NCBI RefSeq assembly: GCF_002879855.1
Contig: NZ_PNYB01000013.1
Span: 62,001 to 126,000 of the forward strand
Source of the DNA: Trinickia soli
Lineage (GTDB): Bacteria > Pseudomonadota > Gammaproteobacteria > Burkholderiales > Burkholderiaceae
DNA: 64,000 nt
Direction of reading: 5' to 3'
Part shown: piece by piece, positions 9,786 through 21,702 of the stretch
Layout of the letters: each line of letters begins with the position of its first letter
Numbering within the stretch: the stretch's first letter is position 1
Notes under the pieces: model-generated
Database searches by the model: none
What the model was told of the DNA's origin: nothing
What the model saw: the letters and a program-made list of their open reading frames with translations, nothing else
Position numbers and translations under genes: made by a program

Positions 9786-10148
9786 CTATTCCTTCGTCCC
9801 AGCCGCGCGCACCTTCAGGCGATTCTTCACCTGATGCACGCCGTCGATGCCCTCGACCACCTCCTGAGCACGCGACTTCTCATCGCTGGTCGGTACCGAA
9901 CCGGTCAGCCAGACGGTGCCGCGTCGCGTCTTGACGTGGATACGCGTCGATTTGACGTCCTTGGCCGCCATCAACGCGGCTTTGGCCTTCGTGGTGATCG
10001 TGCCGTCGCTGATGTGCTGGCCGAGCGACTCGGAACTGCCGGACGGCGCCGAGGCCGCCGACGATTCCGTGGTCTGGGCCGTCACGCCACCGGCGAATGC
10101 GAGGGACACAACGATCGTGGCGATTTTGAGAACTGGGAGCGTCTTCAC
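9786..10148 (-). CDS. Periplasmic BON-domain protein
   Basis: A 120-residue exported protein. Residues 1-24 (MKTLPVLKIATIVVSLAFAG onward, cut after VTAQ) are a signal peptide. After a Ser/Ala-rich linker, residues about 47-113 form one BON domain (DGTITTKAKAALMAAKDVKS, then VWLTGSVPT and GVHQVKNRL). BON proteins such as OsmY bind phospholipid or protect against osmotic shock. It is divergent from rpoN and at the edge of the sigma-54 island, but I find no -24/-12 element before it, so its membership of that regulon is doubtful. Confidence 0.88.
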   Translation of the reverse strand: MKTLPVLKIATIVVSLAFAGGVTAQTTESSAASAPSGSSESLGQHISDGTITTKAKAALMAAKDVKSTRIHVKTRRGTVWLTGSVPTSDEKSRAQEVVEGIDGVHQVKNRLKVRAAGTKE

Positions 10149-10390
10149 GATTTCTCCTGCTCAAAGATGGAAGGGATTGCCGAAGCACGGATAGCGGATG
10201 CGCAACGATGCGCAACTGGATCGGAAAGAGATACCTACCGGCCGCAGGCCCGCCCCCGACCCACCGCAATAGTCGTGCCCCCTTTACATCGCCGCGAGAT
10301 GCCCTCGCAGCAAAAGGGTCGGACGCAGGCGCAGCAAAGCGCGCCTCGCTTTTTGCACTGCGCCCTGTAAAAGCTGCCGCCGCCGCGCTC

Positions 10391-10408
10391 GCCAGGCACA
10401 TTCCTGGC
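10391..10408. promoter_or_regulatory. Palindrome upstream of the rpoN promoter, candidate activator site
   Basis: GCCAGG, six bases, CCTGGC: perfect 6-bp arms centred about 73 bp before the predicted rpoN start point. The position suits an enhancer site, but it does not share an obvious consensus with the palindromes near otsA or the 97-residue gene, so the link is inference. Confidence 0.35.
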
Positions 10409-10445
10409 AGGAATGAATCGGGCCAACACCGCGCGGGGCAACGCT

Positions 10446-10461
10446 TGGTACGGCCATTGCT
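10446..10461 (+). promoter_or_regulatory. Sigma-54 (-24/-12) promoter of rpoN
   Basis: TGGTACGGCCATTGCT matches the consensus TGGCACG-N4-TTGCW at all but one position. GG (10447-10448) and GC (10459-10460) are correctly spaced. The predicted start is near 10472, leaving a leader of about 24 nt before the rpoN ATG. Confidence 0.8.
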
Positions 10462-10495
10462 TAAAAGCTAGGACTATTCCACTGGACATTTCGTT

Positions 10496-11995
10496 ATGCC
10501 GCCCACTCTCGAACTGCGCAGCAAACAACACGTCGCGCTGACTCCGCGTCTGCAACAATCGGTGCGTCTGCTGCAGTTGTCGTCGCTCGAGTTTCAGCAC
10601 GAACTGCGTCAGGCGCTCGACAACAACCCATTTCTCGAATACGACGACCCTATCGTCGAGGAAACCGAAACGGGTCCGAACGGCACGCACGAGCGCGATG
10701 GCAGCACATTGGAAGCCGGCGTCGCGACCGACGCAGCGCCGACCGCCGAGTCAGCCGATTCAGCCGACTCGTATGACGGCGTCGGTGTCGATACCGTGAG
10801 CAGTTCGCCCGCGGACGATCCCACCGGCGATTTCGGTCAGGATTGGACGACGCGTAGCGCCTCGCGCAACAACGGCGATTCGGACGACGTCGATCCCGGC
10901 GCCTGGGCACACGCCCAACCTACGATGCACGAGCATCTGCACAGCCTCTTGCATCTGTATCCGCTCAGCGAGCGCGATCGGGCAGCCGCTCAGATCGTTA
11001 TCGAAGCGCTTGACGACGACGGCTACCTGCGCGAACCGCTCGACGAGTTGGCCGCCTCTTTCGAAGCCGATCCGCCGCTCGGCGAAGAGGAATTGCGGGT
11101 CGCACTGCGGCTCGTGCAGACGCTCGACCGTCCCGGCGTCGGCGCACGCTCGCTGTCCGAATGCCTGAAGCTGCAATTGGACGTCATGCCGGCGGAAACG
11201 CCGGCACGCGATATCGCTTGCGAAGTCGTTGAACATCATCTCGAACGACTGGCGCGACGCGAACATGCCGAACTGCAAAGGCAGCTCGGGTGCTCGGCCG
11301 AAGAGTTGCGCAAGGCATGCGCGCTCGTGCGTCGGCTCGATCCGAAACCGGGCCAGTTCTACTCGCGGGCCGACGACAACTACGTGATCCCCGATGTCAT
11401 CGTGCGTCGCGTCAAAGGACGTTGGGTAGCCACAATCAACCCGGCCGTGCTGCCGCGAGCGCGAATTCATCGCGTCTACGCCGAGCTGTTCGCACAGTCG
11501 GGCGGAGCCGGCTCGCCGCTCGGTCAGCAACTGCAAGAAGCGCGTTGGCTGCTGCGCAATGCCGAACAACGCTTCACCACGATCCAACGCGTCGCGCAGT
11601 GCATCGTCTCTTATCAAAAGGCGTTCTTCGACTACGGCGAAATCGCACTGAAGCCGCTCGTGCTCAGCAAGCTTGCCGAAGAACTGGGCCTGCACGAATC
11701 GACGGTGTCGCGCGCATCGAGCAACAAGTACATGGCCACGCCCCGCGGCATCTTCGAGTTCCGCCACTTCTTCCCGCGCGAACTTGCGACCGAGACGGGC
11801 GGGCGCTGTTCTGCGGCGGCCGTGCGGGCGCTGATCAAAGAGATGATCGATCAGGAAGACGCGCGCAATCCGCTGTCCGATGTCGCGTTGGCGAAGATGC
11901 TCTCGCAGGAAGGCATGATCGTCGCGCGTCGCACGGTAGCGAAGTATCGCAATCTGCTGAAGGTGCCGCCCGCGCAACTGCGGCGTCAGGCTTAG
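10496..11995 (+). CDS. rpoN: RNA polymerase sigma-54 factor (RpoN), stand-alone paralogue
   Basis: Alternative sigma factor of 499 residues that directs polymerase to -24/-12 promoters and needs AAA+ activators. Region I (MPPTLELRSKQHVALTPRLQ and the following Gln/Leu-rich stretch) is the activator-responsive part. An acidic region II occupies about 50-135, the core-binding domain includes RPGVGARSLSECLKLQLD, and the C-terminus carries the RpoN box ARRTVAKYRN (usually ARRTVAKYRE) at 477-486. The canonical proteobacterial copy sits in an lptB-rpoN-hpf-ptsN cluster. None of those genes is here, so this is probably the second copy. It has its own sigma-54 promoter and two activators nearby. Confidence 0.95.
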   Translation: MPPTLELRSKQHVALTPRLQQSVRLLQLSSLEFQHELRQALDNNPFLEYDDPIVEETETGPNGTHERDGSTLEAGVATDAAPTAESADSADSYDGVGVDTVSSSPADDPTGDFGQDWTTRSASRNNGDSDDVDPGAWAHAQPTMHEHLHSLLHLYPLSERDRAAAQIVIEALDDDGYLREPLDELAASFEADPPLGEEELRVALRLVQTLDRPGVGARSLSECLKLQLDVMPAETPARDIACEVVEHHLERLARREHAELQRQLGCSAEELRKACALVRRLDPKPGQFYSRADDNYVIPDVIVRRVKGRWVATINPAVLPRARIHRVYAELFAQSGGAGSPLGQQLQEARWLLRNAEQRFTTIQRVAQCIVSYQKAFFDYGEIALKPLVLSKLAEELGLHESTVSRASSNKYMATPRGIFEFRHFFPRELATETGGRCSAAAVRALIKEMIDQEDARNPLSDVALAKMLSQEGMIVARRTVAKYRNLLKVPPAQLRRQA

Positions 11996-12015
11996 CGCAT
12001 CGTGGTGATGGTCCG

Positions 12016-12048
12016 CGAACGGGCGATCGCTGGTTGATCGCCCGTTCG
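12016..12048. terminator. Inverted repeat after rpoN
   Basis: CGAACGGGCGATC / GATCGCCCGTTCG, a perfect 13-bp stem with a 7-nt loop, begins about 20 bp after the rpoN stop. It has no T tract. With the second hairpin at 12059-12093 it forms a tandem end region. Confidence 0.5.
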
Positions 12049-12058
12049 GGAGCGGAAA

Positions 12059-12093
12059 CGAGAAAGGGCCGGCGCTACGCCGGCCCTTTCTCG
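12059..12093. terminator. Bidirectional terminator between rpoN and otsA
   Basis: CGAGAAAGGGCCGGCG / CGCCGGCCCTTTCTCG is a perfect 16-bp inverted repeat with a 3-nt loop between two convergent genes, so it can end both transcripts. T-rich bases are within the stem rather than after it. Confidence 0.7.
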
Positions 12094-12133
12094 TGATGGG
12101 GAGCGCTGCCGCGCAAGCAGCAGCGCTTGCTAC

Positions 12134-13555
12134 TCAGGCCGCGATATCGGCAAGCTTGACGGCCTTGCGCGTGACCGACGCCGCGGTCGTGACATTGCGC
12201 AGATCGGCAAGGAACGCATCGCGCCATGTCGACAGATCGTTCGCGCGCAAACGCGCCATCATGTCGGCATGCCGCGCTTTGCGGTCTTCGAGCGGCATCG
12301 ACAGCGCCCGCTCGAGCGCTTCTGCCATCTGCGTCAGATCGAACGGATTGACGACCAGCGCTCCAGGCAATTGCTCGGCTGCGCCCGCGAACTGCGACAG
12401 CACCAGCACGCCCGGATCTTCAGGGTCCTGCGCGGCAACATACTCTTTCGCTACTAGATTCATCCCATCGCGCAACGGGGTGACGTAGCCCACTTGCGAT
12501 AGACGGAACAGCGCCATCAGGATGTTGCGCTCGTACTTGCGGTTCAGGTACTGAATCGGCGTCCAGTCAAGCTGCGCGAAACGGCCGTTGATGCGACCCG
12601 CCTCGCCTTCGAGCGTTTGCCGAATGCGTTGATAGGTCTGCACGTCGGAGCGCGTCGGCGGAGCGACCTGCACCAGGGACACACGTCCATGCCAATGCGG
12701 CGCGCTGAGCAACAACCGCTCGAACGCCTGGAACCGCTCGACAAGCCCCTTCGAGTAGTCGAGACGATCGACGCTCATGATGAGCCTGCGGCCGCGCATC
12801 GCCTCGCGCAACGTACCCACCTGCTTGCGGTCGCCGAACTGTTGTGCGGCTTTGGCGATGGCATCGGGATAGATGCCGATCGGATAGGCGCCGACCTTCA
12901 GCACGCGCCCGAAGGCGTGGATCATGCCGTCGTCGCTCGCCGTGCCGAACCCGCCGCGTTCGATGTAATCGACGAACGACTGTCGATCGGCCTGGGTTTG
13001 GAAGCCGAGCACGTCGTAACTACACATCGCCTTGACGAGTTCCTCGTGCGGCGGCACGGTGCGCAGCATCTCCGGCACGGGAAACGGGATATGCAGGAAG
13101 AAGCCGATCGGGTTGTGCACGCCGATATCGCGCAACGCCCGCGCGAACGGCAGAAGGTGGTAGTCGTGTACCCAGATGATGTCGTCGGGTTGGAGCATGG
13201 CCTTCAACTGCTTGGCCAACGTTGCGTTCACCCGCAGGTACCCGGCGTACTCCTGGCGATCGTAGCGGGACAGGTCGGTGCGATAGTGAAACGCCGGCCA
13301 CAAGGTCGCGTTCGAAAACCCTCTGTAGTACTGATCGTAATCGCGCCGTGTGAGACCGACGGTCGCGTACGTGACCTTCCCTTGCGTGTCGATCGACGGG
13401 GCCTGCGGCTCACCGACGATTTCTCCGCTCCATCCGAACCAAACGCCTCCCGTTTCCTTCAGGGCGTCCAGCACGCCGATCGCGAGCCCCCCTGCCGCGG
13501 GGCGGCCCTCCTGCGTCGGCGCGACGCGGTTTGACACCACGATTAATCTGCTCAT
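12134..13555 (-). CDS. otsA: Trehalose-6-phosphate synthase (OtsA)
   Basis: GT20 glycosyltransferase joining UDP-glucose and glucose-6-phosphate to trehalose-6-phosphate, the first step of compatible-solute trehalose synthesis. The 473-residue product matches OtsA length. [11 protein letters not shown] is the N-terminal signature; [18 protein letters not shown] and [14 protein letters not shown] carry donor and acceptor contacts. I chose the MSRLIVV start, preceded by GAGG, over ATGs 9 and 25 codons upstream. No otsB phosphatase is adjacent, so the second step must be encoded elsewhere. A very good -24/-12 promoter lies about 70 bp upstream (13626-13641), suggesting RpoN control; it converges with rpoN. 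Confidence 0.95.
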
Positions 13556-13625
13556 TGGCGGCTCCACCTCTTCGGTTGGCATTCTTGCGCGGCGAACCGT
13601 CTCGCCGTCGCTGAAATATCGGGTA

Positions 13626-13641
13626 TGCAAGGTGCGTGCCG
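13626..13641 (-). promoter_or_regulatory. Sigma-54 (-24/-12) promoter of otsA
   Basis: On the minus strand CGGCACGCACCTTGCA fits TGGCACG-N4-TTGCW except for the first base. The predicted start near 13615 leaves a 60-nt leader before the otsA ATG. Confidence 0.75.
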
Positions 13642-13693
13642 TGATATACGTCTGAACAAAGCACTTCGGTGCTGCGGGTCGCTATGCACGGCA

Positions 13694-13708
13694 TTCGACA
13701 ATGTCGAA
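13694..13708. promoter_or_regulatory. 15-bp palindrome upstream of the otsA promoter, candidate enhancer site
   Basis: TTCGACA-A-TGTCGAA is a perfect 7-bp inverted repeat centred about 86 bp before the predicted otsA start, where sigma-54 activators usually bind. Assignment to either nearby activator is inference. Confidence 0.45.
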
Positions 13709-13808
13709 GTCGCGCCTTCGATGAAATGTCAGCGCGCACGCCCTCATCGACCGAAGCCGATGCCTGGATCCGCAGGCGCCAACCGTGCGCCCGTTCGAGG
13801 AACGACGC

Positions 13809-14030
13809 TCAGGCGTCCTGTTCGGAGCCCAGGTCGCGTTGATAGTCGAGCCCTTCTGCGCGAGCGCCGCCCTGGTTATGCTCGCCGTCGGCGGGCGCGT
13901 CGGGCGCGGAGCGATTCTGAGCGGACGGGTCTTGCGACGATGGCGACGACCGGGCGGCAAAAGCGCCGCCGTTCTTCGCTTCGCGCTTGAGCGCATGGCG
14001 CGGCGAACGCCGCAACGCGGGATGTCTCAT
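13809..14030 (-). CDS. Hypothetical hydrophilic small protein, 73 residues
   Basis: Starts MRHPALRRSPRHALKREAKN, with a basic N-terminal third and an acidic, Ala/Asp/Gly-rich remainder ending in YQRDLGSEQDA. Composition suggests a largely disordered protein with no membrane segment or signal. A GGAG ribosome site 8 bases upstream favours this ATG over one 12 codons earlier. It lies between otsA and a proline-rich small gene in the sigma-54 island, but I find no -24/-12 element directly before it. I do not recognise the family. Confidence 0.5.
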   Translation of the reverse strand: MRHPALRRSPRHALKREAKNGGAFAARSSPSSQDPSAQNRSAPDAPADGEHNQGGARAEGLDYQRDLGSEQDA

Positions 14031-14180
14031 GGAACGGTCTCCAGGAGCTGAGCGAATGGCCGACAAGCAATTAAGTCTAGGATGCCGGGCGACCCTTCGC
14101 GCGGTAACAATTGCGTCAGATTTGTAACCGATACACTCGGGTTCTCGTGGAATTCGTCATCGAATTCGTCAGGGGATTGC

Positions 14181-14363
14181 TCAGCGCATTGGGGGCATAT
14201 CGGACGGCGTGGGCGGTGGATCGCCGATCGGAGGTTGAGGTGGTTCGGGAGGATCGCGCTCGGGGATCGGCCCCGGAGTGGGCGGCTCCTCCGGCGGCGG
14301 TACCGACGGCTCCGGCTCGGGCGTATGCAACTGCAACGGCCCGCTCTGCAATGCTGATGTCAC
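14181..14363 (-). CDS. Proline-rich small protein, 60 residues, uncharacterised
   Basis: GTG-initiated ORF, MTSALQSGPLQLHTPEPEPS then repeated PPP/PEPP/DPP runs, about 40% Pro with Glu/Asp, no hydrophobic segment. Short Pro/Glu/Asp-rich proteins of this kind are frequent in Burkholderia genomes as hypotheticals. Two things support it: a GAGG ribosome site 6 bases before the GTG and a sigma-54 promoter (14404-14419) whose predicted start is about 30 nt upstream. It lies directly downstream of the receiver-type activator gene on the same strand. Function unknown. Confidence 0.6.
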   Translation of the reverse strand: MTSALQSGPLQLHTPEPEPSVPPPEEPPTPGPIPERDPPEPPQPPIGDPPPTPSDMPPMR

Positions 14364-14403
14364 GGCGTACCTCGCTGAGCAACCTGGGTCAGGTGTTCAA
14401 GCG

Positions 14404-14419
14404 AGCAAGTCTTCTGCCA
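14404..14419 (-). promoter_or_regulatory. Sigma-54 (-24/-12) promoter of the proline-rich gene
   Basis: On the minus strand TGGCAGAAGACTTGCT has a perfect -12 (TTGCT) and TGGCA at -24, with exact spacing. The predicted start is near 14393. Confidence 0.7.
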
Positions 14420-14568
14420 GAAGGAAAGGGTAAGCGCGCCAGCGTAGCTGCACGCCGATAGCACATGACGTGGGGCGGCGACGAGGGGCCGCCCTTTCGA
14501 GATCTCCGAGGCGGCGTGCAGCGCGGCGCCGGCCCCTGGCCGACGACCGCGGCACGCGGCACGCACGC

Positions 14569-15972
14569 TTACTTGCCGGCGGTAGCCTCGCCGGTTTCTC
14601 CGGCCGCATCGCTTTCGCTGGCCGATTTCGCATCTTCGCCGTACTCGACGAGACGGTTGTAGAGCGTCTTCAGGCTGATGCCGAGGATCTCGGCCGCACG
14701 CGTTTTGACGCCACCGCACTGCTCCAATGTCGCAAGAATGAGTTGGCGATCGGCCGTCGCCAGCGAGGTGCCGAACGGGATCGTCACGGCCGTGCCAGCC
14801 GAAGGCTTCGACAGCGAGATTTGCAACGGCACGGCTGCCGTGCTGTCGGCGTCGGGGCCCGCCATGATGAAAGCGCGCTGCACGTAGTTCTTCAATTCGC
14901 GCACATTGCCGGGCCACGGATACGACAACATCATGTCGCGTACGGCGGGCGGGAACTGCTTGCGCGTGCCGTGACGCTCGTTGAATTCTTCGAGAAACGC
15001 TTGCGCCAGCAGCCACACGTCGTTGCCGCGCTCGCGTAGCGGCGGCAGGCTGATCGGGAACACGTTGAGCCGATGGTAAAGATCGAGGCGCAGCTTGCCT
15101 TCGAGCACCGCTTCTTCAGGGTCGCGGTTCGTCGCCGCGATCACGCGGACATCGGTCTCGATCTCTTTGGTCGTGCCCACGCGCATGAACATGCCGGTTT
15201 CGAGCACGCGCAGAAACTTGACCTGCAACTCGGCCGGCATCTCGGTGATTTCATCGAGAAAGATCGTGCCGCCGCTGGCCCGTTCGAAATACCCTTTGTG
15301 CTGGCGGTCGGCGCCCGTGAACGAGCCACGCTCGTGGCCGAACATTTCCGATTCGATCAGATTCGGCGAAATCGCCCCGCAATTGACGGCGAGGAACGCA
15401 TGCTTGCGACGCAGGCTCAACTCATGAATCGTCTGCGCCGCGACTTCCTTGCCGGTACCCGACTCGCCGACGAGCAGGACCGACGCGGCGGTGGGCGCCA
15501 CCCGGCCGATCTGGTCGTAGACCGATTGCATGGCGGGCGAACTGCCGAGCATGAGGCCGAAGCGCCCCATTCGCCGCAATTCGCCACGCAGCGTGCCGAT
15601 CTGCGCTTTCAGATCCCCGGCGCGCGGCAGGCGATCGAGCACCGCCTTCACGCGCTGCATGTTGATCGGTTTGACGAGGTAGTCAGTGGCGCCCATCTTG
15701 AGCGCCGTGACGGCCGACTCCACCGTCGCATGGCCTGTGATCACGATGATTTCGACGCCCGAACGCGGGTCGAGATCTTCGAACAAATCGACGCCGCTGC
15801 CGTCGGGCAGTTGCAAGTCCGTGAAGACGACATCGGGCGTCTGTCGCCCGAGCTGAATGCGAGCCTCGCGCAAATCGCCGGCAGTCGCTGTCGTCAAGCC
15901 GTCTGCGGCGATGATCGATACGAGGGCTTCGCGGGTTTCGGGGTCGTCGTCGACGATCAGCACATGTGGCAT
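14569..15972 (-). CDS. Sigma-54-dependent response regulator, NtrC family (orphan)
   Basis: Enhancer-binding activator of 467 residues. The receiver domain (1-115) has the acidic pair in VDDD and phospho-acceptor Asp52 in FTDLQLP. The AAA+ domain has Walker A GESGTGKE (169-176), the sigma-54 contact loop GSFTGA (216-221) and a Walker B region at FLDEITEMP. The C-terminal Fis-type helix-turn-helix reads LGISLKTLYNRLVEYGE. No histidine kinase gene is adjacent, so its input is unknown. A TATACA -10 box stands about 25 bp upstream of the start, so its own expression may be sigma-70 driven. Its recognition helix is almost the same as that of the receiver-less paralogue 770 bp away. Confidence 0.93.
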   Translation of the reverse strand: MPHVLIVDDDPETREALVSIIAADGLTTATAGDLREARIQLGRQTPDVVFTDLQLPDGSGVDLFEDLDPRSGVEIIVITGHATVESAVTALKMGATDYLVKPINMQRVKAVLDRLPRAGDLKAQIGTLRGELRRMGRFGLMLGSSPAMQSVYDQIGRVAPTAASVLLVGESGTGKEVAAQTIHELSLRRKHAFLAVNCGAISPNLIESEMFGHERGSFTGADRQHKGYFERASGGTIFLDEITEMPAELQVKFLRVLETGMFMRVGTTKEIETDVRVIAATNRDPEEAVLEGKLRLDLYHRLNVFPISLPPLRERGNDVWLLAQAFLEEFNERHGTRKQFPPAVRDMMLSYPWPGNVRELKNYVQRAFIMAGPDADSTAAVPLQISLSKPSAGTAVTIPFGTSLATADRQLILATLEQCGGVKTRAAEILGISLKTLYNRLVEYGEDAKSASESDAAGETGEATAGK

Positions 15973-16121
15973 ATCGGAGTTAGCTGGATCAGTTTTGTAT
16001 AAAGGTTGAAGAAGAGGGGCCGACGCCCGGCGCGAACGACCCCTGCCCGGATCGCACGTCGCACCTTATTCTGCCTAGACGCGACGATGGAAGCGAGCGA
16101 TTCAGCACACTCGGGTGAAAC

Positions 16122-16146
16122 AAGCGCCGCCTGAACGGCGGCGCTT
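16122..16146 (-). terminator. Hairpin between the 97-residue membrane gene and the response regulator
   Basis: AAGCGCCGCC / GGCGGCGCTT, perfect 10-bp stem with a 5-nt loop, begins about 30 bp after the stop of the upstream gene. On the minus strand it is followed by GTTTC only, so termination strength is uncertain. Confidence 0.5.
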
Positions 16147-16176
16147 TACGCTGCGGCGCTGGCGCGCGCTGCTGGG

Positions 16177-16470
16177 TCAGCCATGCCCGTGCGGGAAAAT
16201 CCACGCGTCGGGCGTGCTGCCTACGTGCCCGAAGGCACCGTGGCCCGCGCCGTTAGGCGCGACATCGCGCCCCTGACCGCCGGCCGACAATTGCGGCGCG
16301 GCACCGGGGGCCGCCCCTTGCGCCACGACCGCGCCGCCTTCGCCTTCCCACCGGCTCAGCTCGGCCGCGAGCCGCGCTCGCGATGCACGGTGCTTTTGCG
16401 CCCAGCGCCACGCGATCATGCCGCCGACCGCGACCAGCGCGCCAAATATGCCGATTCTGGGACGAGCCAT
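16177..16470 (-). CDS. Small membrane-anchored protein, 97 residues, uncharacterised
   Basis: Starts MARPRIGIFGALVAVGGMIA: one N-terminal hydrophobic helix (about 6-22) followed by a basic segment (WAQKHRASRARLAAELSRWE) and a Gly/Ala-rich tail ending STPDAWIFPHGHG. The basic residues after the helix suggest a cytoplasmic C-terminus. A strong GAGGGGG ribosome site precedes the ATG. A sigma-54 promoter lies about 130 bp upstream. The gene diverges from the receiver-less sigma-54 activator, a layout often seen when an activator controls its neighbour. I know no family for it. Confidence 0.65.
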   Translation of the reverse strand: MARPRIGIFGALVAVGGMIAWRWAQKHRASRARLAAELSRWEGEGGAVVAQGAAPGAAPQLSAGGQGRDVAPNGAGHGAFGHVGSTPDAWIFPHGHG

Positions 16471-16597
16471 CGTATCCCCCTCGCATTGCCCGGTTCATTG
16501 ACGAGTGCGGGGCCGAGCAATCGCCCGCGCGCCGCTCGCATCCAGATGGGATCGATCGGACGACGCCAAGTTCCGCTGACCGCCGAGTTCCACATGT

Positions 16598-16613
16598 CGC
16601 ATGTTTCGTGCCA
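16598..16613 (-). promoter_or_regulatory. Sigma-54 (-24/-12) promoter of the 97-residue membrane gene
   Basis: On the minus strand TGGCACGAAACATGCG has a perfect TGGCACG at -24 and TGC at -12 with the right spacing. The predicted start near 16587 gives a leader of about 117 nt. Confidence 0.75.
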
Positions 16614-16635
16614 GCACCACGCATCGCTCGCCGTT

Positions 16636-16650
16636 ACGTAGGGCCTACGT
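16636..16650. promoter_or_regulatory. 15-bp palindrome between divergent sigma-54-linked genes
   Basis: ACGTAGG-G-CCTACGT, perfect 7-bp arms, lies 56 bp before the predicted start of the 97-residue gene and 90 bp before the activator gene. A wider repeat CCACGCA (16617-16623) / TGCGTGG (16651-16657) brackets it off-centre. Possible binding site for the adjacent activator. Confidence 0.4.
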
Positions 16651-16697
16651 TGCGTGGTTAAATAGTTGTTTGGGAACCCGCCACGCGCAGCGGCGCC

Positions 16698-16722
16698 AAA
16701 AGGAGAGCATCACTCTCTTTTT
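16698..16722 (+). terminator. Hairpin with A/T tracts in the leader of the receiver-less activator gene
   Basis: AAAAGGAGAG / CTCTCTTTTT forms a 10-bp stem (one G-T) with a 5-nt loop and continues into T's, ending 18 bp before the ATG. It has the form of an intrinsic terminator or attenuator and contains an AAGGAG motif too far from the start to serve as its ribosome site. Confidence 0.45.
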
Positions 16723-16740
16723 TCGGCGCGCGAGCGCTCT

Positions 16741-17820
16741 ATGGACAGCAATCACATGGCCGAGCTAACCGATATCGAAACTGCGCCTGCCTCGCCGGAG
16801 CAACGTGCGGCAGCGCGGTTCGCCAAAAACCTCGTACGCGATGCGGCGGGGCTCCAATCGTATGGTCTGCTATACGGTTCTTCGCCGTCGATGATCGAGT
16901 TGTATGAGCAAATCGACCGCGTTGCAGCGACGGACGCAACGGTGCTCGTCGTCGGCGAATCGGGCACCGGCAAGGAACTCGTCGCCCGCACGATTCACGA
17001 TCGCAGTTCGCGCAAGGACGGCCCGTTCGTCGCCGTCAACTGCGGCGCGATTCCCGACAGCCTGCTCGAGGCCGAGCTGTTCGGCCATGAGCGCGGCAGC
17101 TTTACCGGCGCCGTGCAAGGCCGTGCAGGCTATTTCGAGCATGCGAACGGCGGCACGCTTTTCCTCGACGAAGTCACCGAGATGATGCCCGTGCGTCAGG
17201 TCAAGCTGCTGCGCGCGCTCGAAACCGGCACGTTCTACCGCGTCGGCGGCACCGAGCTCTTGCACAGCGACGTGCGCGTCATCGCAGCGACGAACCGGGA
17301 TCCACTCGTGGCCGTCAAGGAAAACGGCCTGCGCGAAGACCTGATGTATCGGCTCGCCGTTTTTCCGCTGCGCGCACCGCCTCTACGCGAACGCGAAGGC
17401 GATCGCGAGTTGCTCGCGCAGCACTTTCTGGCCGAGCTGAACGCGCAGGAAGGCACGAACAAGGTCTTCAGCAAACGCGCGAGGGAAACGCTGCGCACCT
17501 ACTCCTGGCCCGGCAACGTACGTGAACTCAAGAACAGCGTCTATCGGGCGTTCATCCTCGCCGAGAAGACTGTCGAGATCGAGCATCCGCGGCTGGCCGC
17601 GCGCTCGAAGAAGGCTGTCACGCAAGGCGACGCGATGAGCATATGGGTCGGCACGCCGCTCGCGGAAGCGCAGCGGCAGATCATCCTCGGAACGCTCAAG
17701 CACTGCGGCGGCGACAAACGTCGCGCGGCGAAGGCGCTCGGCGTCAGCCTGAAGACGCTGTACAACCGGCTCGGCGCTTACGAGGAAGAAGACGACGGCG
17801 CCAGCGCGCCGGAGGCATAA
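16741..17820 (+). CDS. Sigma-54 activator lacking a receiver domain (AAA+ plus Fis-type HTH)
   Basis: A 359-residue enhancer-binding protein. After about 45 residues without recognisable domain it has an AAA+ module with Walker A GESGTGKE (72-79), GSFTGA (119-124), FLDEVTEMM and arginine-finger region, then the Fis-type HTH ALGVSLKTLYNRLGAYEEE. Lacking a receiver, it may be constitutively competent or controlled by a partner protein or by level. The HTH nearly matches that of the response regulator across the small membrane gene. I start it at ATG 16741; MAELTDIE five codons later is an alternative, and neither has a good ribosome site. A leader hairpin precedes it. Confidence 0.88.
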   Translation: MDSNHMAELTDIETAPASPEQRAAARFAKNLVRDAAGLQSYGLLYGSSPSMIELYEQIDRVAATDATVLVVGESGTGKELVARTIHDRSSRKDGPFVAVNCGAIPDSLLEAELFGHERGSFTGAVQGRAGYFEHANGGTLFLDEVTEMMPVRQVKLLRALETGTFYRVGGTELLHSDVRVIAATNRDPLVAVKENGLREDLMYRLAVFPLRAPPLREREGDRELLAQHFLAELNAQEGTNKVFSKRARETLRTYSWPGNVRELKNSVYRAFILAEKTVEIEHPRLAARSKKAVTQGDAMSIWVGTPLAEAQRQIILGTLKHCGGDKRRAAKALGVSLKTLYNRLGAYEEEDDGASAPEA

Positions 17821-17926: not shown

Positions 17927-19276
17927 TCACGACTCGACGTCTTCGAGGCTGAAGATTTCGGTTTGATCGTTGTACGAAAAGATCTCGCCGTAACGGCCCC
18001 AGTTGATGACGGCGTCGAGCGTTTCTTCTGCGGCGCTGTCGGACAGAAAATCCTCGAGCTCCTGCTCGAAGCGCACACGCGGCGCGCGATGGCCGGGACG
18101 CTCGTTGAGCACCTTCTTGATTCGCGCGGCCAGCGGCACGTGCCGCAGGAGGTGTTCGGAGAACATCATCTTGCGCTCTTGCGTACCGAACTCGGCGAAC
18201 ACGCGCGCGGGCGGGGTCAGGAAGATATCGCCCTCGCGCACATCGGCGAAACCGAGGTATTGCAGCACTTCGGCGATCGGAAACAGATCATCCACTTCGA
18301 GGTGCAACGAACGCGCGATTTCCGGCATGTCGGCACGGCCGTGGTACGGCGGCGCAGCCAGCGTCTCGATCAGACCGGCCATCAGGTTCGTCGACACACT
18401 CGGCAACCAGCTGCCGAGTTCAAGGCCCTTCTTGGTAGCCTCGTCGGTGCGGCGAGCCGTCATCTTTGCGTAGATCTCGTCGACGAGCCGCCGGAAGGCC
18501 GGATCGAGCCGGTTGCGCGGATGCGCGAACGGCACCTTGATCTCCGCCAGCACGCGCCCGGGATTGGACGCCAACACGAGGATGCGATCGCACATGAACA
18601 CCGCTTCTTCGATGTTGTGCGTGACGATCAGCACCGACTTGATCGGCATGCGCCGCTGGGTCCACAGATCGAGCAGGTCGGTACGCAGCGTCTCGGCGGT
18701 CAGCACGTCGAGTGCGGAAAACGGCTCGTCCATCAGCAACAAGGTCGGATCGACGACGAGCGCGCGCGCAAAGCCCACGCGCTGACGCATACCGCCCGAA
18801 AGCTCGCGCGGATACGCGTTTTCGAAACCATCGAGGCCGATCAGGTCGATCGCGGCCAACGCACGCTCGCGTCGCTCGCGCGCGGCCACGCCTTGCGCCT
18901 CGAGCCCCGCTTCCACGTTTTGCAACACCGTGAGCCAGGGGAACAGCGCGAACGTCTGAAACACCATCGCCACGCCTTCGGCCGGACCGGAAAGCGGCTC
19001 GCCGAGGTAGCGCACTTCGCCGGCGGTCGGTTCGATCAGACCTGCGATGATGCGCAAGAGTGTGGACTTGCCCGAGCCAGAACGACCGAGCAGGCCGACG
19101 ATTTCGCCTGCACGCAGCGTGAGATTGACGTCGTCGAGCACGAGCAGCTCGCCCTGCGCTTTAGAAAATCCGCGGCGCACGCCTTTGACGTCGAGAACTT
19201 CTTCGCCCAGCCGCGGCGCGGCTGGCGCAGCGTTGGCGAACGGGGCGGCGCTTAGGTCAGCTTTGGGGTTTTGCAT
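17927..19276 (-). CDS. ABC transporter ATP-binding protein with C-terminal AAA-associated domain
   Basis: ATPase of a nitrate/sulfonate/taurine-type importer, 449 residues. The cassette (about 26-280) has Walker A GRSGSGKST (64-72), Q-loop VFQTFALFPWL, signature ELSGGMRQR and Walker B LLLMDEPFSALD with an H-loop in VTHNIEEAV. The remaining about 150 residues (PEIARSLHLEVDDLFPIAE onward) match the AAA-associated domain found on a subset of these ATPases, presumably regulatory. It lies 78 bp downstream of the double permease, same strand, so the two form one transporter. The solute is unknown. Confidence 0.88.
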   Translation of the reverse strand: MQNPKADLSAAPFANAAPAAPRLGEEVLDVKGVRRGFSKAQGELLVLDDVNLTLRAGEIVGLLGRSGSGKSTLLRIIAGLIEPTAGEVRYLGEPLSGPAEGVAMVFQTFALFPWLTVLQNVEAGLEAQGVAARERRERALAAIDLIGLDGFENAYPRELSGGMRQRVGFARALVVDPTLLLMDEPFSALDVLTAETLRTDLLDLWTQRRMPIKSVLIVTHNIEEAVFMCDRILVLASNPGRVLAEIKVPFAHPRNRLDPAFRRLVDEIYAKMTARRTDEATKKGLELGSWLPSVSTNLMAGLIETLAAPPYHGRADMPEIARSLHLEVDDLFPIAEVLQYLGFADVREGDIFLTPPARVFAEFGTQERKMMFSEHLLRHVPLAARIKKVLNERPGHRAPRVRFEQELEDFLSDSAAEETLDAVINWGRYGEIFSYNDQTEIFSLEDVES

Positions 19277-19354
19277 TGCGCTTCACTCTTGAATTGAGCT
19301 TTCGGTAGACGCGCCTGCCCGGCGCGCCTTCAGGCGAGTTCCGATCGATCCCGA

Positions 19355-21109
19355 TCAATCGAGCCGCAGCTTCGCTTCGGCGTACGCATAGAGCGGACGC
19401 CACAGCAGGCGGTTGAACAGCGTCACGAACAACGACATCACCGCGATCCCCAATATGATCTTCGGGAAGTCGCCCGCGGCCGTATATTCGGCGATATATG
19501 CGCCGAGCCCGTGCGCGGCGACCTTCGTATCGCCCCACTGCACGAATTCGGACACGATGCTCGCGTTCCACGCGCCGCCCGACGCCGTGATGGCCCCTGT
19601 CACGTAATACGGAAAAATGCCCGGCAGCATTGCCTGACGCCACCATTGCCAGCCACGGATGCGAAAGTTTGTCGCGGCTTCGCGGTAGTCGTTCGGGTAC
19701 GCCATCGTGCCGGCAATGACGTTGAACAGGATATACCACTGCGTGCCGAGCACGATCAGCGGGGACAGCCACACATCGGCGTTCAGGTGAAAGCGCACGA
19801 TGACGATCACGAATACAGGGAACAGCAGGTTCGCCGGAAAGGCGGCCAGAAACTGCGCGATCGGCTGGGCTTTCTCGGCGAGCGCAGGCTTGAGCCCGAT
19901 CTTCACGCCGACGGGAACCCAGATCAGCGACGAAATCGCGATCAGAATCACGACGCGGGCAAGCGTGATGAACCCGAGCACGAAGACGTGGCCGACTTCC
20001 GCCCCTGTCACACCGGTGCGCACGTAGGCGACGACGCGCCAAACCACGTACACCATCGCGACCAGCACGAGCAGCCCCCAGACGATGTCGCCCACGAGCG
20101 AGCGCTTCTCCAGGCGGGCAAGCCGCGTGAACGGAGCGGCATCGACGCGCGGCAGGCGCAGCGGCAGGCGCGCGAGCTTGGCGAACAACCAACCCGCCGG
20201 CACGAGCAGCAGATGAATCAGCCGGGTGCGGCGCACGAGGTCGAGCAGCCATGATTCGGGCGCGTCGCCGGAGCTCGTCGTTTCCATGCGGAACTTGTCG
20301 GCCCAGGCCACCAGCGGGCGGAACATCAGCTGATCGTAAGCGAGAATGACGACCGACATCGCGACGATCACCCAGCCGATGGCCGCCAGGTTCTTCGCCG
20401 CAATGGCCTGCGCCAGATACGCGCCGATGCCGGGCAGCGTGATCGTATTGTTGCCTACGGTGATCGCTTCGGAGGCGACGACGAAGAACCAGCCGCCCGA
20501 CATCGACATCATCATGTTCCAGATCAGGCCGGGCATCGAGAACGGCACTTCGAGCTTCCAAAAGCGTTGCCAGGCCGTCAGGTGAAAACCGCGGGAAACT
20601 TCATCGAGATCGCGCGGCACCGTACGCAACGACTGGTAGAAGCTGAACGTCATGTTCCAAGCTTGGCTCGTGAAGATGGCGAAGATCGCCGCGAGTTCCG
20701 CGCCGAGGACACGGGCGGGAAAGAGCGCAAGGAAGAACGTGACCGTAAACGAGATGTAGCCCAACACGGGCACCGACTGCAGGATATCGAGGACCGGCAC
20801 GAGCACCATGCCCGCACGGCGGCTCTTGGCCGCCAGGGTGCCGTAGCCGAGCGTGAACGTGAGCGACGCGACCATGGCCGCCAGCATGCGCAACGTCGTG
20901 CGCAGGGCGTACTCGGGCAACATCGCGGGATCGAGCGAGATGACCTGCGTCTTGAGCGTCGAAATGGGCGCCATCGTCTGGTGAAAGCCGATCGCGGCCA
21001 TGGCGATGGCGCAGATGATGAGCGGGAACGCGACGAAATCCCAACGGTTTGGCGCGAGGCGCCATGCCGACGCATTCGCCGTGCGATTCAGGTTGAAGCC
21101 GAATTCCAT
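19355..21109 (-). CDS. ABC transporter permease with two fused transmembrane domains
   Basis: Inner-membrane channel of 584 residues that contains two complete binding-protein-dependent permease domains in one chain. The first (about 30-290) ends with the EAA-type loop around DLDEVSRGFHLTAWQRFWKL, the second (about 330-580) has NDYREAATNFRIRGWQWWRQ. About 12 helices are expected. Fusion means one polypeptide can replace the usual homodimer. I start at MEFGFNLNRTANAS, preceded by a GGGGG ribosome site; 80 upstream codons are not membrane-like. No substrate-binding protein is encoded on either side, so the pair either uses a distant one or works without it. Confidence 0.85.
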   Translation of the reverse strand: MEFGFNLNRTANASAWRLAPNRWDFVAFPLIICAIAMAAIGFHQTMAPISTLKTQVISLDPAMLPEYALRTTLRMLAAMVASLTFTLGYGTLAAKSRRAGMVLVPVLDILQSVPVLGYISFTVTFFLALFPARVLGAELAAIFAIFTSQAWNMTFSFYQSLRTVPRDLDEVSRGFHLTAWQRFWKLEVPFSMPGLIWNMMMSMSGGWFFVVASEAITVGNNTITLPGIGAYLAQAIAAKNLAAIGWVIVAMSVVILAYDQLMFRPLVAWADKFRMETTSSGDAPESWLLDLVRRTRLIHLLLVPAGWLFAKLARLPLRLPRVDAAPFTRLARLEKRSLVGDIVWGLLVLVAMVYVVWRVVAYVRTGVTGAEVGHVFVLGFITLARVVILIAISSLIWVPVGVKIGLKPALAEKAQPIAQFLAAFPANLLFPVFVIVIVRFHLNADVWLSPLIVLGTQWYILFNVIAGTMAYPNDYREAATNFRIRGWQWWRQAMLPGIFPYYVTGAITASGGAWNASIVSEFVQWGDTKVAAHGLGAYIAEYTAAGDFPKIILGIAVMSLFVTLFNRLLWRPLYAYAEAKLRLD

Positions 21110-21702
21110 CAAGCCCCCTTCGCGCCGGGTGGCGAACGGTGAATGGCCGCCACGGGGCCGCCCGTGGCGGCGCTGTGTACGGCCGCTAAACGGGCGCAGC
21201 CGGGCGAGTGCGGGACACTGACACGATCCGTGACACGAAATACGAGCATGACGAGCGTAGGGTTGCGGTGATGCGTTGAGCGCGAATCGTTGGGTTGCCG
21301 AGCCGTCGATCTTACTGGCGGCCTTCGTCGCCTTTCTTTTTGACGGCACGACACTACTACAACCTGTGTTTCAGGCACAACCGCAATAGCCATAAAATGC
21401 CTTCGGGGGCTGGATGGCGCGCCTGGCCGCCGCCCAGCGCGGCGTGTGTGAATGAAATGTGCATGCACGTGGCGTTCTTCCGCCAGGGCCATGCCCTGGC
21501 GCGCGCGTGGACGCAAAAATAACCCGAAAGCAAGCCTGCAAACATGAAATTATGCCGTGAAGCCGGTCCGCGGGGAACCCACGCGGCCGGCAAAGGCAGA
21601 CCGCCGTCCATGCAAAAACGGCGAACAAACGGCACGCCGCCGAGAACGCGTATGATCGGTCTCTCGTGGCGAATGCCCCACCGATCTACCGGGAGATGCC
21701 GA
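21110..21702. other. Intergenic region upstream of the double-permease operon
   Basis: About 590 bp between divergent genes. It holds a perfect 11-bp hairpin (GCCGCCACGGG / CCCGTGGCGGC, 21146-21171) in the permease leader, the palindrome GTGCATGCAC at 21459-21468 and a 9-bp hairpin CGCCAGGGC / GCCCTGGCG at 21481-21501. Reading frames here look random. I cannot place either promoter with confidence; TATGAT about 50 bp before the small gene is a weak -10. Confidence 0.5.
21146..21171 (-). other. Leader hairpin of the double-permease gene
   Basis: Perfect 11-bp stem with a GCCG loop ending 37 bp before the permease start. It would form in the 5' untranslated RNA and could influence translation or termination; no T tract follows. 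Confidence 0.4.

Follow-up and report, generated by a model that had tools for sequence, protein, structure and literature searches.

The 64-kb window analysed here (G000:C8:62001-126000 of a 6.1-Mb Trinickia genome; all coordinates below are window positions) carries a second sigma-54 gene, rpoN2, within an island that also encodes two sigma-54 activators (EBP1 and EBP2; EBP, enhancer-binding protein), the trehalose-6-phosphate synthase OtsA, and several small proteins. We give somewhat better than even chances to the reading that this is a conserved regulatory island, self-amplifying and stress-protective, in which RpoN2 is encoded together with its activator pair and local protective genes. 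The two sigma-54 types, the island, its promoter-like sites, a DNA element with its spacing, and the co-occurrence of the genes are read directly from the sequence. In the titles, abstracts, and passages searched, with subscription journals mostly outside the coverage, no description of the conserved island or of its element was found; the conserved local regulon, its candidate operator, and the proposed stress role are new. A preliminary description of this DNA had treated such a system as not known to be described, which holds only in part, for the island and regulon. According to the passages available from the published reports, RpoN2 itself is already in print for Ralstonia and Burkholderia pseudomallei, including the rpoN2 promoter and the two adjoining activators tabulated in Ralstonia (PMC4371752; PMC4676750) and the control of katE (PMC4745423).

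Two types of sigma-54

The window gene encodes a sigma-54 with all three domains of the family and the RpoN box ARRTVAKYR. It lacks the usual lptB, hpf, and ptsN neighbours, as the preliminary description had pointed out, and is flanked by a BON-domain gene on one side and otsA on the other. The check for a second rpoN proposed there located another copy in the genome (G000:C48, L106), in the order lptA-lptB-rpoN-hpf-ptsN-hprK (names assigned from translations of the open reading frames, ORFs). Thus, the lptB-rpoN-hpf-ptsN locus of a canonical RpoN1 is found for this other copy, and the window copy has neither this locus nor a place in the RpoN1 group. Each of the 11 genomes of the genus that were searched has two rpoN matches, an RpoN1-type and an RpoN2-type one.

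A tree of 101 sequences was built by a quick method with a midpoint root and with long branches flagged. In it, the window RpoN belongs with the second rpoN copies, among them a named one from B. multivorans and the Ralstonia-like ones (genus labels other than Trinickia, i.e. Ralstonia-like, Cupriavidus-like, and Burkholderia-type, are inferred); a branch separates this group from RpoN1 and most of the order's sequences. The RpoN2 side also takes in three sequences from another family of the order (L144, L146, and L147), grouping with L097, whereas L145, with a long branch, is basal on the RpoN1 side. Among ten named RpoN2 matches, the eight close ones (78-91% identity) comprise six from Trinickia and two from Paraburkholderia. 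The types are distinguished by 23 positions (at least 90% agreement within each set, 31 sequences being taken as RpoN1-type and 49 as RpoN2-type), several of which lie in region I and the DNA-binding domain; the RpoN box is identical in both.

A search of a plasmid collection returned mostly other RpoN types. In L144, L146, and L147, the RpoN2-type sigma is the only match at E<=1e-100 in each genome, and five small genomes of genus g12 (G066, G075, G107, G121, and G149) each contain two distant sigma-54 matches, the best at about 1e-84 to 1e-90.

Promoter-like sites around rpoN2

Promoters were scored with a sigma-54 matrix based on the literature and not fitted to the window. The four -24/-12 promoters of the preliminary description (before rpoN2, otsA, a proline-rich gene, and a small membrane gene), called well formed there, all have the GG-N10-GC spacing and rank 1, 2, 3, and 5 among the matches on both strands of the 64 kb. 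A site before the BON gene, missing from that description, is a fifth island promoter, weaker than the other four. Plain counts give no excess: the consensus with up to three mismatches occurs 122 times in the window (123.7 expected), and the genome-wide pattern TGGYACGN4TTGCW has five exact matches, including the rpoN2 site, and 78 with at most one mismatch, including the otsA site, as compared with 161 for the reversed control pattern. The proline-rich and membrane gene sites, with two mismatches each, fall outside this genome-wide list. The case therefore rests on rank, clustering, and conservation.

Around rpoN2, matches are dense: 3.1 per 10 kb in 40 rpoN2 loci, 0.18 in the rest of the window (1 match), and 0.53 in ten rpoN1 loci (3 matches). 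When 20 of the 40 rpoN2 loci were compared with 20 stretches from the same genomes (320 kb each), the rpoN2 loci and the controls had, respectively, 105 and 12 matches at a score of at least 12.5, 57 and 3 at 14, 41 and 1 at 15, and 24 and 1 at 16. Locus by locus, 19 of the 20 exceeded their own control, with one tie, at 12.5, 14, and 15, and 15 did so at 16, with four ties. An enrichment of sigma-54-like promoters around rpoN2 across the family is thus supported at the sequence level. The outcome that would have spoken against the preliminary description, a single rpoN with no local enrichment, is not what the genome presents.

Conservation was measured as the best site in the 400 bp before each gene, with 12.5 as the main cut-off. 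Of 40 loci, 38 have an rpoN2 promoter that reaches it (the exceptions are L090 and L098; in L096 the distance is 321 bp), and the otsA promoter does so in 20 of the 21 rows with a neighbouring otsA (the exception is L085; in L089 the distance is 321 bp). The site before BON does so in 10/24 rows (16/24 at a score of at least 11), and that before the membrane gene in only 6/18 rows, its block being visible nonetheless in the genus alignment. A sigma-54 promoter before rpoN2, a feature by which RpoN2 genes are recognised, is present here and has been published likewise for Ralstonia in the passages available (PMC4371752).

Candidate operator before rpoN2

Alignment of the upstream regions of the genus revealed a block, TTTTGCAC...CTGTAAAA, in the space between the divergent BON and rpoN2 promoters, with a single match in the window at up to three mismatches. 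Of 41 loci, 33 have TGTAAAA upstream of their rpoN2 promoter, at -78 to -81 (20 loci), -66 to -72 (6), -91 or -92 (6), and -113 (1), i.e. at distances differing by steps of about 11-12 bp. Together with a promoter at 58-87 bp, TGTAAAA is found at rpoN2 in 11/11 genomes of the genus and only once elsewhere (G008), the reversed pattern giving 3 matches. The dyad TTRCA-N8-TGYAA occurs 13 times in the genome, as compared with 8 times for the reversed pattern, and of these 13 only the one at rpoN2/BON has -24/-12 sequences within 220 bp, at least one on each side.

A matrix of the element was trained on 20 of the rpoN2 loci, the Ralstonia-like loci being outside the training set. In four Ralstonia-like loci, the element is absent at rpoN2 and a site stands instead before the sigma-54 promoter of EBP1, at -68/-69 and -80/-81, two of the distances also seen at rpoN2, with 16-22 bits; the controls contain 1 match in 320 kb. 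As the loci are related by descent and hence not independent, the separate distances and the Ralstonia-like case form the stronger part of the argument for the element. Perfect palindromes of 7-1-7 (8-1-8 at rpoN2) before rpoN2, otsA, and the membrane gene were also considered as enhancers and rejected, none of them being kept in relatives.

The activators EBP1 and EBP2

EBP1 and EBP2 are 51% identical to each other, and both contain an AAA+ domain with a GAFTGA-type loop (the GSFTGA variant) and a C-terminal helix-turn-helix, as do bacterial enhancer-binding proteins. EBP1 is of the NtrC type, with a receiver domain (Response_reg, E=3.1e-26) and, by eye, the phospho-acceptor Asp in FTDLQLPDG. 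The near-identical recognition helices reported in the preliminary description were confirmed: scoring of 150 of the 226 candidates in the genome gave 16 HTH_8 matches, and of these only EBP1 and EBP2 have SLKTLYNRL. This helix is also kept in the family rows of EBP1 and EBP2, with one change each in EBP1 of L098, L131, L141, and L142, the EBP2 rows of L074 and L075 being left out of the comparison.

Of 150 genomes sampled from the family, 78 have an RpoN2-type match (E<=1e-150) and 99 have an EBP1 match (E<=1e-130); the 99 include all of the 78, so that EBP1 is present in 78/78 RpoN2 genomes. It is also present in 21 of the 41 genomes with sigma-54 and without RpoN2; three Burkholderia-type genomes have neither RpoN2 nor EBP1. 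EBP2 accompanies EBP1 in 18 of 20 further loci.

The GSFTGA loop was dropped as a mark of RpoN2-specific activators, since other activators of the genome have it; it is also contradicted by GAFTGA in EBP1 of L129, L130, L137, and L138, the last two from genomes with RpoN2. The EBP2 loop is GGFTGA in Cupriavidus-like loci. No histidine kinase was seen among the ten proteins scanned against Pfam, between 9.8 and 21.3 kb of the window, the rest of the genome not being searched; a kinase-like and OmpR-like pair recognised by eye lies at 22.1-24.1 kb, and this kinase has its own regulator.

Genes behind the strong promoters

Clustering of the genes that immediately follow strong promoters gave 70 clusters, of which 48 are singletons and some are surely spurious; four sites have no ORF behind them. 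For a family scan, 20 pieces were taken in addition to the rpoN2, otsA, BON, EBP1, membrane, and proline-rich clusters. Ten of these pieces were picked as recognisable: DJ-1/PfpI, DUF2383, CBS, uracil-DNA glycosylase, DUF1328, DUF883, DUF4142, starch synthase, PRC, and topoisomerase IB. Several of the downstream families are of types associated with stress. In B. multivorans (L123), rpoN2 is surrounded by genes for Ku, LigD, DUF892, CBS, PRC, and DUF1328 proteins; its strong sites precede rpoN2, UdgX, CBS, DUF3175, and DJ-1-type genes and some family-less ones, not those for Ku, LigD, or DUF892.

According to passages of published reports, the katE gene of B. pseudomallei requires RpoN2 (PMC4745423); katE (BPSS2214) and rpoN2 (BPSS2218) are close by locus tag, and RpoN2 and KatE fall together in a trigger-factor mutant (PMC13192269). 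In R. solanacearum, rpoN2 depends on rpoN1 for its expression and responds to minimal medium by induction; the role of this second sigma-54 was called enigmatic in 2015 (PMC4371752). For B. thailandensis, RpoS is reported not to increase in stationary phase, RpoE and RpoN being the candidates named by the authors (PMC12322963).

Gene content of the island

The features of the island are collected in Table 1. Thirteen loci (L072-L084), ten from relatives within the genus and three from close ones, keep the order rpoN2, otsA, small gene, EBP1, membrane gene, and EBP2, and in six of them BON was not found; L085 and L102-L104 show the same order with longer gaps. In several other loci, rpoN2 is separate from an otsA-EBP1-EBP2 block, and four Ralstonia-like loci have EBP1, EBP2, and rpoN2 together and no otsA. 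Of 39 rpoN2 loci retrieved, 23 have a BON gene, which we take to be OsmY-like, in divergent orientation to rpoN2. With the start of otsA set at ATG 13555, its promoter lies outside the gene. The small conserved gene adjoins otsA in many relatives (tblastn), and the membrane gene is present in the genus and some relatives; neither of these nor the proline-rich gene has a Pfam match.

Table 1. Positions of the genes, promoter-like sites, and candidate operator of the island
Feature	Position	Strand	Description
BON-domain protein gene	9786..10148	-	Pfam BON, E=1.3e-18
BON promoter	10265..10280	-	GGGCACGACTATTGCG; score 11.6; 116 bp before BON
Putative enhancer/operator, 22 bp	10351..10372	+	TTTTGCAC-N6-CTGTAAAA; between divergent BON and rpoN2 promoters
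rpoN2 promoter	10446..10461	+	TGGTACGGCCATTGCT; top matrix match of window
rpoN2, second sigma-54	10496..11995	+	499 aa; three Pfam sigma-54 domains (AID, core-binding, DNA-binding)
otsA, trehalose-6-phosphate synthase (GT20)	12134..13555	-	Pfam, E=8.7e-129; start corrected to ATG 13555
otsA promoter	13626..13641	-	CGGCACGCACCTTGCA; second matrix match of window
Small conserved gene	13809..14030	-	No assigned function; ATG 14030 likely; longest ORF to 14066
Proline-rich protein gene	14181..14363	-	60 aa; HTPEP...PPIGDPPP common to relatives
Proline-rich gene promoter	14404..14419	-	TGGCAGAAGACTTGCT; third matrix match of window; counterparts in relatives
EBP1, response-regulator-type sigma-54 activator	14569..15972	-	Receiver, AAA+ (GSFTGA), HTH_8
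Small membrane protein gene	16177..16470	-	97 aa; ORF; N-terminal hydrophobic stretch by eye
Membrane gene promoter	16598..16613	-	TGGCACGAAACATGCG; fifth matrix match of window
EBP2, sigma-54 activator without receiver	16666..17820	+	AAA+ (GSFTGA), HTH_8; ATG 16741 likely

The proline-rich protein, of no known family, is encoded near EBP1 in several genera. In the leader between the -12 element and the start of the membrane gene (16470-16600), GGAACT and GATCGATC blocks are conserved in the genus and are possibly a second promoter of the ECF (extracytoplasmic function) type or an RNA element. A TTAAATA block before EBP2 (16650-16670), also conserved in the genus alignment, looks like the -10 of a vegetative promoter for EBP2. 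EBP2 is followed in many loci by an ABC transporter ATPase, with an AAA_assoc_C domain, and a permease (17927-21349 in the window).

Proposed working and alternatives

The binder of the element, the sigma factor reading each promoter, the signal, and the stress role we infer as follows. Given their identical recognition helices, EBP1, which has a phospho-acceptor Asp, and EBP2, which has no receiver, would bind to sites of one kind, and they may form mixed hexamers by analogy with HrpR/HrpS. Activators bound at the candidate operator (10351-10372) would loop onto sigma-54 polymerase at the divergent rpoN2 and BON promoters, RpoN1 being used first and newly made RpoN2 joining later, which would amplify the response. 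The raised level of sigma-54, together with the active activators, could then switch on otsA, for trehalose, and the genes for the two small proteins (proline-rich and membrane), as well as, in related genera, those for DJ-1/PfpI, DUF2383, CBS, PRC, DUF883, and other proteins, in a programme probably directed at osmotic, desiccation, or stationary-phase stress. A self-amplifying stress island of this kind accounts for the genes that are present, for their autoregulatory layout, and for what has been published on rpoN1 and katE.

A number of observations weigh against this scheme. The helical phasing of the element is suggestive only, as judged from 11 distinct distances (vector length, 0.58-0.70 for periods of 10.5-12 and 0.40 for a period of 10). 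By the element matrix, none was detected at rpoN2 in L087, L089, and L096 (3 of 41 loci); L097, likewise without one at rpoN2, has a weak match (13.8) in the interval that separates a glgA-like gene from its neighbour, and 20 EBP1 loci contain 17 weaker matches (13.1-18.7 bits) in 304 kb, mostly away from promoters. A search at the otsA, proline-rich, and membrane gene promoters gave nothing convincing, and so the activator of these genes is only putative; in the genus alignment, no conserved block besides the promoter was seen in the approximately 200 bp before otsA. Genomes that lack RpoN2 can still have EBP1, EBP2, and the otsA promoter, mostly with no element near a promoter; L129 and L130, each from a genome with a single sigma-54 match of RpoN1-like score, retain the -24/-12 promoter of otsA. 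The case for a stress role depends on hand-picked families, many downstream genes having no known family: among the ten other pieces of the scan, DUF3175, MarR, DUF2188, and HATPase_c, none of them stress-specific, were above the Pfam cut-off, and six pieces had nothing above it. Furthermore, as stated in passages of the Ralstonia study, rpoN2 mutants showed no phenotype in the tests done, and its authors suggested RpoN2 as an antagonist, or NtrC control of rpoN2 (PMC4676750). The preliminary description had proposed a second sigma-54 dedicated to a local stress programme. Two rpoN genes, a group of its own for RpoN2, a conserved island, promoter enrichment, and several stress-type genes agree with this proposal; the dedication itself is only putative, since the otsA promoter is kept in two genomes without rpoN2, the RpoN box is common to both types, and rpoN2 of Ralstonia depends on rpoN1 for its expression (PMC4371752). 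The family-less downstream genes weigh against the stress role.

These points bear on a nearly evenly balanced alternative, to which we give slightly less than an even chance: the local regulon is real and RpoN2 unspecific, both sigma factors reading the same promoters and RpoN2 adding sigma-54 dosage under stress. The common RpoN box and the otsA promoters persisting with only an RpoN1-like match (L129 and L130) fit such a role, as does the complementation by Ralstonia RpoN2 of an E. coli rpoN mutant and, for C4-dicarboxylates, of the Ralstonia rpoN1 mutant; yet passages of the same study report RpoN1 and RpoN2 to be non-interchangeable (PMC4676750), and RpoN2 is retained as a separate group with 23 type-distinguishing positions, several of them in region I and the DNA-binding domain. 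Binding of the rpoN2 element by a different activator, for example NtrC, is rather unlikely; it would make rpoN2 starvation-responsive and leave EBP1 and EBP2 to act elsewhere. The NtrC site is TGCAC-N7-GTGCA. The dyad TTGCAC-N6-GTGTAA resembles it, and genomes with EBP1 and EBP2 and without RpoN2 mostly lack the element; however, the spacing is off by one base, the form in most genera is TTGCC...TTGTAAAAA, Ralstonia-like loci have the element before EBP1, and it is paired with -24/-12 sequences in the genome only at rpoN2/BON, whereas NtrC has many targets.

A further possibility, that RpoN2 acts as a competitor of RpoN1 to damp the remaining sigma-54 genes and has the local promoters as side targets, is quite improbable. 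The idea comes from the Ralstonia study, which in the passages available reports no role for rpoN2 in either metabolism or virulence (PMC4676750), but the promoter-like sites around rpoN2 are dense and conserved, and katE positively needs RpoN2 in B. pseudomallei according to passages of that report (PMC4745423). We give hardly any credence to the four promoters being chance matches in GC-rich DNA: consensus counts in the window equal those of shuffles, genome-wide counts are no higher than for the reversed pattern, and the membrane gene site is below 12.5 in 12 of 18 rows, but the rank and clustering of the sites, their conservation, and the same-genome controls all argue otherwise, and for the rpoN2 and otsA promoters the family-wide conservation speaks against chance. 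Beyond the self-amplifying island itself, a wider proposal is doubtful at present: a general stress response of the Burkholderiaceae might be built on sigma-54, with RpoN2, fed by RpoN1 through a phased enhancer bound by the EBP pair, controlling nearby trehalose, envelope, and DNA-protection genes and replacing RpoS or acting beside it.

Comparison with known systems

The closest published counterpart is RpoN2 of R. solanacearum GMI1000 with the activators Rsp1667/Rsp1668, a second sigma-54 probably belonging to the same group; in the parts of the reports available, it likewise has a sigma-54 promoter before rpoN2, two neighbouring GSFTGA activators, and an RpoN promoter before one of them (PMC4371752; PMC4676750). 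In contrast to the Trinickia island, no otsA/small-gene island was found in the four Ralstonia-like loci, and those parts of the reports assign no role in Ralstonia and make no mention of the shared element. RpoN2 of B. pseudomallei (BPSS2218) is similar in being a second sigma-54 with positive control of a nearby stress gene, katE; its target is different, and the activators are undiscussed in the passages available (PMC4745423; PMC13192269).

The island offers a concrete hypothesis for a second sigma-54, with protective genes, a named activator pair, and a mapped candidate operator. Sigma-54 is usually tied to nitrogen, flagella, and the envelope, and the island, if the proposal is true, would be an unusual case in which it governs a broad protective programme, with the sigma factor, its activators, and its targets clustered together. 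General stress responses governed by RpoS, sigma-B, or EcfG include trehalose, OsmY-like, DJ-1-like, and YciF-like genes, to which the gene content of the island is alike. Unlike in those responses, control would be exerted by an activator, beyond release of the sigma factor alone, because sigma-54 needs ATP-driven activators. Finally, EBP1 and EBP2 resemble HrpR/HrpS and PspF-type activators, of which one or both have no receiver, in forming a closely related pair, and differ from them in that EBP1 keeps its receiver.

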